From an uncultured Eubacteriales bacterium (GTDB lineage Bacteria > Bacillota > Clostridia > Peptostreptococcales > Anaerovoracaceae), in contig CADAEH010000007.1 in NCBI GenBank assembly GCA_902786855.1, positions 47,617 through 111,616 of the forward strand: DNA of 64,000 bases, read 5' to 3'. Below the pieces are notes generated by a model. The model saw only the letters and a list, made by a program, of their open reading frames with translations. It was not told the origin of the DNA and ran no database searches. This document shows positions 5,573 through 64,000 of this stretch, one piece after another. Numbering within the stretch: position 1 is the first letter of the stretch; the number at the start of each line of letters is the position of its first letter. The position numbers and the translations under genes were made by a program.

Positions 5573-6569
5573 TTTTGACAGAGAGATACTTCAGCCGGAA
5601 GTTCTCGAAGAGAAGCTGACTGCACTCGGCGAGAGCGAGATGGACCTGTTTCGCATGATGCTTGACCGGCCGGCAGGAGCGATCCTTACTGTAGATACCG
5701 ATATCATGCTGGCAGAGCTGCTCGCGTCTGATGATCTCATGATGCTCATGCCTGACAACAAAGTGATCATCCCGTCAGATATCCGTGAGGCATACAGAAG
5801 GATCTGGTCTGATGAGCTGATCCTAAAGTGGCGGAAACGCAACTGGATGTATAAGTGCCTGGAAACAGGCAGATATCTCTATGGTGTCATGTCATGGGAT
5901 GTGCTGAAAGATCTGTTCGCACTGAGGTATCCTCACGCTGATACGGCTGAGGTCAGAGAGCTGTTCAAAACCACACCGGTATATTATCAGTGGTTTACTG
6001 AAAGGGACGGAAAGCTGGTGCTGAACGGATATGAAAAAGACAACTACTATAAATATCTGGAGCAGCGGATACAAGGAGATATCCCGTTCTATATTCCTTC
6101 AAAAGAGGAAGTAGAGGAACTGTACGAAAAGGGCAGTCTGCTGAGCAGGGAATCTCATGCTGAGCTGCAGAAATTCATTCAAGATACATATGGCTGCGAT
6201 GCTGACACAGCAGGTCTTAAGGTGCATGAGCTTTATGAAGCTGTAAACAACAGAGTCAGGCTCAATGATGCGGCTGAAGCTTTTGCCACGGGCGGTACTT
6301 CCGGCACTCCGGACTTTGCTTTCCCATCGGACGAAGCTCATGTCAGATTCATAGAGCTTTACATGGAAATGAGCAGGGAGTGCAGGGTCAGAGACAACCG
6401 GGGTCACGACTCTTTTGAGATGGTCTCTTTTATGGCAGAGAAAAACAAAGCAGCTGACGCATCTGAAAGCAAGGCAAATGCCCCGGTCAGACGCGTCAAG
6501 ACAGGCAGGAATGATCCATGTCCTTGCGGCAGCGGAAAGAAATACAAGAACTGCTGCGGCAGGAACTGA
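5559..6569 (+). CDS. SEC-C motif protein of unknown function
   Basis: The 336-residue protein ends in a SEC-C metal-binding motif ([17 protein letters not shown], about residues 316-334), the zinc-binding C-terminal module also found in SecA. The first 300 residues are mostly helical and acidic, without a motif I recognise. The start ATG lies inside ftsH in another frame, overlapping by 14 bases, which makes translational coupling likely. SEC-C modules often mediate binding to the ribosome, SecB or nucleic acids. A role as a partner or adaptor of FtsH is a positional inference. The linker before the motif (about 290-310) is Lys/Ala-rich and probably flexible. Confidence 0.75.
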
Positions 6570-31972: not shown

Positions 31973-33913
31973 ATGAAAGGCTATTCAAGCGATAAGATCC
32001 GCAACATCGTACTGCTCGGACACGGCAGCACAGGCAAGACCACATTCCTTGAAGCAGGACTGCTGAACACTAAGGTCATCAGCAGACTCGGAAAGGTTGA
32101 GTCGGGCAACACAGTATCTGACTATGAAAAGATGGAGATCGAAAAGGGTTACACCATCAACCAGACTCTCGTTCCTGTAGAGTATAAGGGAACCAAGCTC
32201 AACTTCATCGATACACCGGGATTCTTTGATTTTGCAGGAGAGGCAAGAGCCGCTCTTTCAACAGGAGCTACAGCTATCATCATGGTAGACGCTTCATCCG
32301 GTATCCAGGTAGGAACCGAAAAGGCATGGGATCTTGTTAAGGAATACAACTCACCTACATTCTTCATCATCAATAAGATCGACAAGGACAATATCGATGT
32401 TGATGAAGTCATCGCAGCGATCCAGGATAAGTTCGGATCAGCATGTGTTACTCTTGACGACAAGGATGCTCTTGACGAGGCAGTAGCCGGCGCTGATGAA
32501 GAGCTCATGGAGAAGTATTTCGAAGGCGAGCCTTTCACTGACGAGGAGTTTGCTCACGGACTGGCTACAGGTATCCATAACGGAGACATCATGCCTGTTC
32601 TGACAATGAGTGCTCTTACAGGCGAGGGCGTAGACGGTGTGCTCGATGCTCTCTGCAAATATGTACCAAAGCCGGAAACAGTTGTTACTGCGGCAAAGGA
32701 TGCAGACGGAAATGACATCGAGATCGCATGCGATCCTGCAGGAGACCTCGTTATCTACATCTTTAAGACACTGGCTGACCCGTTCCTTGGAAAGATCTCC
32801 TATGCAAAGGTCGTCTCTGGAACACTCAAGTCCGGCGCAGATGTATACAACCCGCGTTCAGAGAAGTCTGAGAAGCTCGGTTCCGTATTCTTCGTAAGAG
32901 GCAAGGCTCAGGAGATGACAGATACCGTAGTAGCAGGCGACATGGTTGCTCTTGGTAAGCTCCAGAACACTAAGACAGGCGACACACTCTGCCCTAAGGC
33001 AAAGCAGGTAACAGTCAAGCCGGCTGCATTCCCTACACCTTGCTACTTCGTAGCAGTTGAGGCAGCTGACAAGAACGAAGATGAGAAGATGGCTCAGGGT
33101 CTCTCAAGACTCATGGAAGAGGATCCTACATTCGTTCTCGAGAGAAACGCTGAGACACATCAGACTCTCCTCGGAGGACAGGGCGATATCCAGCTCGGAA
33201 TCATCCAGGCTAAGCTCAAAGACAGATACGGTGTCAACGTTAACGTTATCCCTCAGAAGATCGCTTACAGAGAGACAATCAAGGGTACATCCGATGTTCA
33301 GGGCAAGCACAAGAAGCAGTCCGGCGGTGCAGGACAGTATGGTGATGTTCACATCAGATTCTCGCCATCACAGGAGCCTGGTCTTGAGTTCAGCGAAGAG
33401 CTCTTCGGCGGATCCGTTCCTAAGAACTACGTACCTGCAGTCGAGAAGGGACTTCTCGAGTGCATGGAAAAGGGCCCTCTCGCAGGATGTAAAGTACAGA
33501 ACATCAAGGCTGTCCTCTATGACGGTTCATATCACGAAGTAGACTCCAACGAAGTATCCTTCAAGATCGCTGCTTCGCTGGCATTCAAGAAGGGTATCGT
33601 TGAGGCAAGACCATGCCTGCTCGAGCCTATCATGAAGCTCGAGATCACAGTTCCTGAACAGTATGTCGGAGCTGTTATGGGCGATATGCCTAACAGGCGC
33701 GGTATGGTTCTCGGTATGGATTCTGCACACGGCGGACAGGTCCTCCACGCTGAAGCTCCGCAGGCAGAGCTCTTCGACTATGCTATCGCACTCAGATCAA
33801 TGACTCAGGCAAGAGGTTCATTCACAGTTGAGTTCGCAAGATATGCTGAGCTCCCTGGCAACCTCGCAGACAAAGTCATCGCAGCTTACAAGGCATCACA
33901 GGAAGAGAAATAA
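31973..33913 (+). CDS. elongation factor G-like GTPase (second EF-G paralogue)
   Basis: The 646-residue translational GTPase has G1 GHGSTGKTTFLEAG near residue 16, G3 DTPGFFDFAGEAR near residue 78 and G4 NKID near residue 130. Domains II-V follow with GGAGQYGDVHIRF near residue 450. It lacks the [15 protein letters not shown] form of the true fusA found at 60764. The G1 and G3 loops (GSTGKTTF, DTPGFF) are those of the EF-G-like/EF-G2 subgroup, whose roles differ between species or are unknown. A CAGGAGG ribosome binding site fixes ATG 31973, and a hairpin terminator follows. It should not be named fusA. Confidence 0.85.
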   Translation: MKGYSSDKIRNIVLLGHGSTGKTTFLEAGLLNTKVISRLGKVESGNTVSDYEKMEIEKGYTINQTLVPVEYKGTKLNFIDTPGFFDFAGEARAALSTGATAIIMVDASSGIQVGTEKAWDLVKEYNSPTFFIINKIDKDNIDVDEVIAAIQDKFGSACVTLDDKDALDEAVAGADEELMEKYFEGEPFTDEEFAHGLATGIHNGDIMPVLTMSALTGEGVDGVLDALCKYVPKPETVVTAAKDADGNDIEIACDPAGDLVIYIFKTLADPFLGKISYAKVVSGTLKSGADVYNPRSEKSEKLGSVFFVRGKAQEMTDTVVAGDMVALGKLQNTKTGDTLCPKAKQVTVKPAAFPTPCYFVAVEAADKNEDEKMAQGLSRLMEEDPTFVLERNAETHQTLLGGQGDIQLGIIQAKLKDRYGVNVNVIPQKIAYRETIKGTSDVQGKHKKQSGGAGQYGDVHIRFSPSQEPGLEFSEELFGGSVPKNYVPAVEKGLLECMEKGPLAGCKVQNIKAVLYDGSYHEVDSNEVSFKIAASLAFKKGIVEARPCLLEPIMKLEITVPEQYVGAVMGDMPNRRGMVLGMDSAHGGQVLHAEAPQAELFDYAIALRSMTQARGSFTVEFARYAELPGNLADKVIAAYKASQEEK

Positions 33914-60763: not shown

Positions 60764-62830
60764 ATGGGAAGAGCATTTGAGCTTGAACACACCAGAAATA
60801 TTGGTATCATGGCTCACATCGACGCCGGCAAAACAACGACAACAGAGAGAATTCTCTTTTACACCGGCAGGACTCACAAGTTAGGTGAGACCCATGAAGG
60901 TGCAGCCACCATGGACTGGATGGCGCAGGAACAAGAGCGCGGCATCACCATTACTTCCGCCGCAACTACTGCTCAGTGGAAACACACAAGAATCAACATC
61001 ATCGACACCCCGGGACACGTAGACTTTACCGTAGAGGTTGAAAGGTCACTGCGTGTACTCGACGGAGCTGTAATGGTGCTTTGTGCCAAGGGCGGCGTTG
61101 AGCCTCAGAGCGAGACTGTATGGAGACAGGCTGAGAAATACGGAGTACCGAGAATGATTTTCGTCAATAAGATGGACATCCTCGGAGCTAATTATTTCAG
61201 AGTTCTGGACATGATCCATGACAGGCTCAAGGCAAACGCGGTGGCAGTCCAGCTTCCTATCGGATCTGAGGCTGACTTCGTCGGCATCATCGACCTGATC
61301 AAAATGAAGGCCGAGCTTTATCATGACGACGACCTGGGCAAAGTATACGAAGAAATCGATATACCGGCTAATATGCTTCCTGAGGCGAGAGCATGGAGAG
61401 ACAAGATGCTCGAAGCTGTAGCTGAGTGTGATGAGGACATCATGATGATGTATCTTGAGGGAGAAGACATCCCTGAAGAAGACATCAGGAAAGTCATCCG
61501 TCAGGAGACGATCAAGGGCGAGATGTTCCCTGTGTTCTGCGGTTCTGCCTATAAGAACAAGGGCGTTCAGCTGATGCTTGACGGCGTTATAGATTACATG
61601 CCGTCACCTCTGGATGTTCCTGCTATCAAGGGAGTGAACCCTTATACCAAGAAGGAAGAAGAAAGACACGCTCAGGACGATGGTCCGTTCTCAGCACTTG
61701 CTTTCAAGATCATGGCAGATCCATTCGTCGGCAAACTCGCGTTTTTCAGAGTATATTCCGGCACCATCAATTCCGGCTCGCATGTATATAATGCGACCAA
61801 AGACCGCAAAGAGAGATTCGGACGTATTCTCCAGATGCATGCTAATCACCGCAGCGAGATCGAGACAGTTTACTCCGGAGACATCGCTGCTGCAGTCGGA
61901 CTGAAGTTCACGACTACAGGCGATACGCTCTGTGATGACAAGCATCCGATCATCCTCGAGTCCATGGAATTCCCGGATCCTGTTATTGAGATCGCCATCG
62001 AACCTAAGACCAAGATCGGTCAGGAAAAGATGGGACTCGCTCTTGCCAAGCTGGCAGAGGAAGACCCTACATTCAGGACATATACCAACCCTGAGACAGG
62101 CCAGACCATCATAGCAGGAATGGGAGAGCTTCACCTTGAGATCATCGTGGACAGGCTCCTCAGAGAATTCAAGGTTGAGGCGAATGTCGGAAAGCCGCAG
62201 GTTTCATACAAAGAGACCATCAGAGGCAGAGCTGATGTGGACTGCAAGCATGCAAAACAATCCGGAGGAAGCGGACAGTACGCTCACGTCAAGATCAAGC
62301 TCTATCCGAGAGCTCCGGGCGAAGGCTTCGAATTCAAGAACTCTGTTGTCGGAGGTGCTATCCCTAAGGAATACATCCCGAAGATACAGGAAGGTATCGA
62401 AGAAGCAATGCAGGCAGGTCCTCTTGCGGGATACAATGTCGTAGATGTCGGTGTTGAGCTGTATGACGGTTCATATCATGAGGTCGATTCCTCTGATATG
62501 GCATTCAAGATCGCCGGATCAAAGGCGTTCAAGGAAGCCGTCATGAAGGCGGATCCGGTACTCCTCGAGCCAATTTTCAAAGTCGAGGTCACAGTTCCGG
62601 ACCAGTATATGGGAGATGTCATAGGTGACATCAGTTCCAGAAGAGGCAGAATAGAAGGATCGGACATCCTCAATGGCGCAGCCATTATCAGAGGTCAGGT
62701 ACCTCTGTCAGAGATGTTTGGATATGCAACGGATCTGCGTTCAAGGACACAGGGAAGAGGCGTATATGTAATGCAGTTCGATCATTTCGAGAAACTGCCT
62801 GACAATCTTGCAGAAAAGATTATAAGATAA
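60764..62830 (+). CDS. fusA: elongation factor G
   Basis: The 688-residue GTPase drives translocation. G1 is [15 protein letters not shown] near residue 17, G3 DTPGHVDF near residue 81 and G4 NKMD near residue 135. Domains II to V follow with the usual [15 protein letters not shown] and [13 protein letters not shown] segments. It begins after GAAAGGAGGG and lies in its usual place between rpsG and tuf. It is the canonical EF-G, distinct from the paralogue at 31973. Confidence 0.97.
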
Positions 62831-62873: not shown

Positions 62874-63948
62874 ATGGCAAAGCAGAAATACGAGAGAACC
62901 AAACCGCACATCAACATTGGTACAATCGGCCACGTTGACCACGGCAAGACAACTCTTACAGCAGCTATCACAAGCGTACTTAACAGACGTAGCATTCGAT
63001 CAGATCGACAAGGCGCCTGAAGAAAAGGCAAGAGGAATCACGATCTCAACAGCACACGTAGAGTATGAGACACCTAACAGACACTATGCTCACGTAGACT
63101 GCCCGGGACACGCAGACTATGTAAAGAACATGATCACAGGAGCAGCTCAGATGGACGGAGCTATCCTGGTAGTAGCAGCAACAGACGGCCCGATGCCGCA
63201 GACAAGAGAGCACGAGATCAGAGAGCTGCTCGACGAGTACGAATTCCCTGGCGACGACACACCGGTGATCAGAGGATCCGCACTCAAGGCACTCGAAGAC
63301 CCAACAGGCGAGTGGGCAGACGCAGTAGTAGAGCTGATGCAGGCAGTAGATGACTACATTCCAGAGCCACAGAGAGCAAATGACCAGCCGTTCCTGATGC
63401 CAGTCGAGGACGTATTCTCGATCACAGGCCGTGGAACAGTAGCAACAGGAAGAGTCGAGAGAGGAATGCTGAAGGTCGGCGATAACGTAGAGATCGTAGG
63501 ACTGACAGACGAGAAGAGAACAGTCGTAGTCACAGGCGTAGAGATGTTCAGAAAGACACTCGACCAGGCAGAGACAGGCGACAACATCGGAGCACTGCTG
63601 AGAGGCGTACAGAGAACCGAGATCGAAAGAGGACAGGTACTTGCAAAGCCGGGCACAATCCACCCACACACAAAGTTCAAGGGCCAGGTATACGTACTGA
63701 AGAAGGAAGAAGGCGGCCGTCATACACCGTTCTTCAACGGCTACAGACCACAGTTCTATTTCAGAACAACAGACGTAACAGGCGATCTTCACCTTCCTGA
63801 AGGCACAGAGATGTGCATGCCTGGAGACAACGTAGTAATGGAGATCGAGCTGATCACACCGATCGCTATCGAAGAGGGACTGAGATTCGCTATTCGTGAA
63901 GGCGGCAGAACAGTAGGATCCGGCGTTGTTACAGAAATTATTGAATAA
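62874..63948 (+). pseudogene. tuf: elongation factor Tu, broken by a frameshift and an internal deletion
   Basis: The gene starts at ATG 62874 after AAGGAGATGT with [19 protein letters not shown] and HVDHGKTT, but this frame stops at TGA 63018-63020 after 48 codons. The remaining EF-Tu sequence ([20 protein letters not shown] onward) continues in the next frame from about 62986 to 63948. At the junction, AGACGT (62985-62990) reads as R-R in the first frame and as D-V in the second, which fits a deletion between two AGACGT microrepeats. A second, in-frame lesion lies at 63213/63214: TREH runs directly into EIRELL, losing about 33 residues that include the NKxD guanine-specificity motif. Domains II and III look intact. 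The total is about 119 bases shorter than a 397-codon tuf. It may be a dead copy or an assembly artefact. Confidence 0.9.
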
Positions 63949-63965
63949 TTTCAAGTCAACTATAA

Positions 63966-63996
63966 GGGGCGCTGCAGAGATGCGGCGCTCTTTTGT
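63966..63996 (+). terminator. terminator after tuf
   Basis: GGGGCGCTGC (about 63966-63975) pairs with GCGGCGCTC (about 63982-63990), with two G-T wobble pairs, and is followed by TTTTGTTTTG. Confidence 0.75.
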
Positions 63997-64000
63997 TTTG

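Follow-up and report, generated by a model that had tools for sequence, protein, structure and literature searches.

Whether the tuf gene at the right-hand end of this DNA was broken in the cell or in the course of assembly is the question that the locus raises. The window, by which is meant the whole stretch of 64,000 nucleotides that was analysed, corresponds to C7:47617-111616 of draft genome G000, which comprises 2,897,730 bases on 62 contigs and has a completeness value of 87.36 and a contamination value of 0.57. Contig C7 has a length of 111,616 bases and ends at window position 64000, and the tuf gene therefore sits where the assembler stopped. N characters marking a scaffold gap were looked for in the window and none was found. 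As assembled, the gene and its immediate surroundings comprise the following features.

60764..62830, plus strand: fusA (EF-G), the upstream neighbour of tuf (TIGR00484, 1159.7 bits)
62874-63948, plus strand: tuf as assembled, with ATG at 62874 and stop codon at 63946-63948
62874..62987, plus strand: 5' part of tuf, codons 1-38, frame intact (TIGR00485 positions 1-38)
62985..62990, plus strand: junction 1, with 20 nt absent relative to a sibling tuf and a change of frame, located at the tip of contig C22
62988..63213, plus strand: middle piece of tuf, 226 nt, between the two joins
63213..63214, plus strand: junction 2, with exactly 99 nt absent (33 codons including NKCD), a length equal to the contig-tip overlap in the draft
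63214..63948, plus strand: remainder of tuf as far as the stop codon, domains II and III (PF03144, PF03143)
63964..63993, plus strand: terminator-like hairpin, with identical bases at the tips of contigs C42 and C29

The assembled tuf gene

From the ATG at 62874 there follow 38 EF-Tu codons and one more (MAKQKYERT...VLNRR), after which EF-Tu continues in a different frame up to 63946-63948, just as the original prediction of a frame lost after codon 38 would have it. The EF-Tu model TIGR00485 matches both parts of the gene, the first at positions 1-38 and the second over two stretches, of which 151-394 matches best, and in place of one continuous TIGR00485 frame the assembled gene is split over two. 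In the second part, the match to the G-domain model is limited to positions 43-113 of 188. Alignment to an intact tuf from the sibling draft G012 revealed the loss of 20 nt at junction 1 and of exactly 99 nt at junction 2. The latter loss, foreseen as some 33 residues between TREH and EIRELL, proved to be exactly 33 codons, and it removes from the assembled gene NKCD, which we take to be the G4 NKxD motif of the G domain. When the G012 tuf DNA was compared with the whole draft, there were two matches on C7, to query positions 13-412 and 512-1243, with 413-511 absent. The idea that a stray contig might hold the absent 99 nt was rejected, since with the sibling tuf as query no copy was found on any contig of the draft; nor did the DNA search locate a complete tuf anywhere among the 62 contigs.

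Three further claims had been made for the DNA around these junctions. It had been proposed that AGACGT forms a 6-nt microrepeat at junction 1, but the sibling sequences permit a microhomology of 2-3 nt at this junction and none at junction 2, and deletion between 6-nt microrepeats was accordingly discarded. An intact promoter finds little backing, in that one promoter-like site was detected against 1.5 expected by chance, and tuf starts 43 nt after fusA. The predicted terminator is indeed present as a hairpin, but the terminator scan alone proves little, because it found 1 such site against 1.2 expected. Upstream in the window, a second EF-G-like protein of 646 aa is encoded at 31973-33913, passing the NF009381 cut-off without reaching the one that TIGR00484 sets for EF-G.

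Comparison of 355 codons with G012, each in its proper frame, gave 270 identical codons, 75 synonymous changes and 10 nonsynonymous ones. For the 5' part the corresponding figures over 37 codons are 29, 8 and 0, and for 63214..63948, over 244 codons, they are 182, 54 and 8. These values point to strong purifying selection, and the tuf bases that are present appear to derive from a working gene; the relaxed selection and accumulated lesions expected of a pseudogene are not seen. Selection alone does not decide the matter, because a very young pseudogene could look alike.

Contig tips and a second tuf locus

Draft G000 contains three further pieces of tuf, every one of them at the tip of a contig (C22, C29 and C42). 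The segments of the window that recur at these tips are as follows.

62889..62987, plus strand: 99 nt that recur exactly at the tip of C22, which comes from another 5' flank and ends at 62987
63902..64000, plus strand: final 99 nt of C7, shared without mismatch by the tips of C42 and C29; the latter two differ from base 100 on

C22 and the window show a mismatch at 62888, followed by identity across the final 99 nt of C22, and the tip of C22 at 62987 coincides with the point of the tuf frameshift. Given this second entry through C22 and the divergence of C42 from C29, two flanks enter tuf (on C7 and C22) and two leave it (on C29 and C42). The identity of the two tuf copies is visible in the draft over the shared tips only. 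The closest frame of 90 aa or more upstream of tuf on C22 stops about 0.44 kb before the tuf start and bears SurE and isochorismatase domains, while the downstream flanks carry two HypB-like genes (C42) and an MtaB-like gene (C29). Two of these flanks merit a remark in their own right. The C22 frame (L043:2900-4345) has a SurE match (PF01975, residues 24-205) joined to an isochorismatase match (PF00857, residues 362-459), and is a candidate fusion. The tandem HypB-like GTPases on C42 (L045:4981-5649 and 5668-6342, minus strand) both score above the TIGR00073 HypB cut-off, and lie just downstream of the tuf 3' end with 15 nt between the genes.

The recurrence of the same length of shared sequence is not confined to tuf. 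When the terminal 400 bases of all 124 contig ends in the draft were compared, excluding 10 ends that are all N, exactly 99 nt proved to be common to 22 pairs of tips, 19 of them besides the three tuf pairs, with seven other pairs at different lengths (93 twice, 90, 69, 49, 43 and 32). With 22 pairs at exactly this value, 99 nt is taken to be the overlap of the assembler. In the simulations described for COBRA (PMC10914622), contig ends at repeat sites overlapped by maxK for metaSPAdes and MEGAHIT and by maxK-1 for IDBA_UD, which was 99 nt there. The tuf contigs resemble the breaks described in that work in their exact sharing of tips of fixed length at a fork in the graph (99 nt in this draft, either 99 or 141 nt in its siblings), but differ from them in that the assembly of C7 continues across the repeat and loses sequence twice on the way.

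A fixed overlap, two ways in and two ways out, and lesions placed at a node end or equal in length to the overlap are three marks of a collapsed-repeat artefact, and tuf in this draft displays all of them. On a rough estimate, chance would place a real breakpoint within 3 nt of the C22 tip in about 0.6% of cases and give a real deletion a length of exactly 99 nt in perhaps 1%.

tuf in related drafts

A sibling draft of the same genus (G003) has an in-frame deletion of 75 nt in tuf after nt 120, on contig C20, and another of its contigs (C12) ends at tuf nt 120 with exactly 99 nt in common with C20; the geometry of tip and deletion is the same as in C7, with a different loss. In two more drafts (G007 and G061) tuf is likewise broken internally, and the internal deletions vary between drafts of the genus. 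The deletion in G007 measures 44 nt and its break lies at about nt 315, while contig C23, whose tip has 27 nt in common with C60, ends at about tuf nt 288; since the break is not at the C23 tip, the simple tip rule does not fit every case. Draft G007 also contains three different tuf 5' pieces, on C23, C162 and C60 (L274, L275 and L276), perhaps from mixed strains.

The genus was surveyed by comparing the intact G012 protein (397 aa) with 48 genomes, and the counts that follow hold among the matches listed. Residues 1-397 were uninterrupted in 5 of the 47 other drafts (G005, G012, G013, G020 and G047), one of which, G012, is the source of the query itself; in two more (G023 and G024) the match is complete but for the first residues, which are missing at a contig tip. 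Two tuf 5' pieces that extend equally far, on separate contigs, occur in 12 of the 47 drafts:

G005, G015, G016, G023, G024, G043, G046, G055, G056, G057, G059, G062

The tips were compared in six of these 12, and the shared sequence was exactly 99 nt in G056, G057 and G059 and exactly 141 nt in G005, G016 and G046. Paired tuf 3' pieces of equal extent were found, among the matches listed, in G018, G019, G049 and G055. Eleven drafts gave no EF-Tu piece among the matches listed (G008, G014, G041, G042, G045, G051, G052, G054, G058, G060 and G063), though G008 and G014 each gave a short tuf 3' piece in a wider search of 40 relatives. In G018 an EF-Tu only about 75% identical to the form of the genus (C69:6-1067, L032) lies beside pieces that are 98-100% identical, and may belong to a foreign contig.

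Relatives in the order with well-joined genomes speak to the number of tuf genes. Three of them, assembled in 1-2 contigs (G025, G034 and G037), each have two tuf copies at a distance of 16-17 kb, both in open frames of 401-411 aa, and the search of 40 relatives showed two copies also in G030, G032 and G033. Three drafts of the order that are well covered, G031, G036 and G038, were each listed with only one full tuf, so that two copies are not universal in the order. In several phyla gene conversion is known to keep duplicate tuf genes alike (PMC6053082). The present case is like those duplicates in having two tuf copies in different genomic contexts, and unlike them in that Bacillota, the phylum of the closest named hits of this draft, is not among the phyla named in the available part of that account. 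Those hits come from a protein scan against genome contigs in which the 80 loci listed of 596 contained no close match, the best being a Bacillota bin at 82% and Gallibacter intestinalis at 79% identity over the best segment, with the proviso that records very close to the genome of the window may be absent from the scan.

Origin of the broken gene

The best explanation of these results, and in our judgement a highly probable one, is that a short-read assembler misassembled two near-identical tuf genes, and that the broken gene is not a real mutation. This reading draws on direct observations: the tip geometry, the lengths that are missing, the failure to find a complete tuf in the draft, and the recurrence of the pattern in a sibling draft. 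The organism would have two such genes, one behind fusA and the other downstream of an unrelated SurE-like gene. A de Bruijn-graph assembler working on short reads, with a tip overlap of 99 nt, would have merged the two copies into shared nodes, and in carrying C7 across the region they share it would have lost bases at two joins, 20 nt at the end of the left-hand node and exactly one overlap length, 99 nt, at the second. The second loss may represent an overlap trimmed from sequences that did not in fact overlap. We infer both the identity of the assembler and the manner in which joining lost the 20 and 99 bases. Neither the 20 nt at junction 1 nor the 75 nt of G003 is an overlap length, so that equality of the deletion with k holds for only one of the two lesions in C7, and as a general rule it was rejected in view of the 75 nt lost in G003 and the 44 nt in G007. 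The real tuf genes of the cell are presumably intact.

Wrong local sequence that disrupts protein-coding genes has been met before. PMC7111523 describes errors of local assembly in metagenome-assembled genomes, together with incorrect protein-coding sequences, and also mentions a piece with EF-Tu encoded at both ends. The tuf lesions are of that kind; the errors in that work are detected by a lack of read support, whereas the case of C7 is known from assembled contigs alone. On breakage of tuf in metagenome bins, no paper appeared among the matches listed in a literature search (titles and abstract openings).

An assembly error could also have arisen from strains binned together, the paired flanks then coming from different strains or organisms. 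The draft looks, from its state, like a metagenome bin, and forks between strains are noted in the COBRA work (PMC10914622) as fragmenting contigs too. Set against this, the flanks that enter and leave tuf consist of unrelated genes and are not variants of one another, the contamination value is 0.57, three relatives of 1-2 contigs have two copies in one genome, and the two-entry pattern recurs in 12 congeners among the matches listed. We consider such a mixture improbable, and it would still make the broken tuf an artefact.

Less probable again is a real pseudogene, in which the fusA-linked tuf is truly frameshifted and has truly lost 33 codons while an intact second tuf, with its 5' end on C22 and its 3' end on C29 or C42, sustains the cell. 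A second tuf locus does exist, a single intact tuf would suffice in principle, and the draft is incomplete, so that an intact copy could be missing from it. The pseudogene would nonetheless need a breakpoint that happened to fall within a few nucleotides of where C22 ends, and a deletion in the cell that exactly matched the 99-nt tip overlap, with no decay outside the two junctions, where 75 changes are synonymous and only 10 are not; and a sibling (G003) has the same tip-plus-deletion geometry with another deletion. When 48 genomes of the genus were searched with a degenerate DNA pattern spanning junction 2, the sole match outside this draft was a single place in G059 that has no similarity to EF-Tu, and a shared inherited deletion was rejected on the same ground. 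It is accordingly very doubtful that a lineage normally equipped with two tuf genes is losing one in this population, leaving the cell on a single intact copy downstream of the SurE-like gene.

A functional EF-Tu variant without G4, made by programmed frameshifting, can be dismissed as extremely improbable even though the gene is open and conserved throughout its 3' part, since shifting the frame would bring back neither the amino acids missing at junction 1 nor the NKCD-containing 33 codons retained in the aligned intact sibling copies, and the G-domain model would remain only partly covered in the second part of the gene.

The original prediction had left two alternatives, a copy decaying beside an intact tuf or two near-identical copies collapsed at short repeats. 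The second is strongly supported by the contig-tip geometry, its replicate in a sibling draft and the breakage of tuf across the genus. The first is not, in view of the lack of any intact tuf found in the draft, the strong purifying selection and the fit of both breakpoints to the geometry of the assembler; a search of the incomplete draft for another tuf recovered the end fragments of a second locus but not an intact copy. With the decaying copy unsupported and the breakpoints matching assembler geometry, damage that was said to look recent is therefore better read as no damage at all.

The main value of this result is as a caution, tuf being uninterrupted in only 5 of the 47 other drafts of the genus among the matches listed. 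Where tuf, or any near-identical duplicate, appears in a short-read draft, contig tips should be compared before a frameshift or the loss of a motif is read as biology. The check is a simple one: does the break fall at the tip of another contig, and does the missing length equal the tip overlap?
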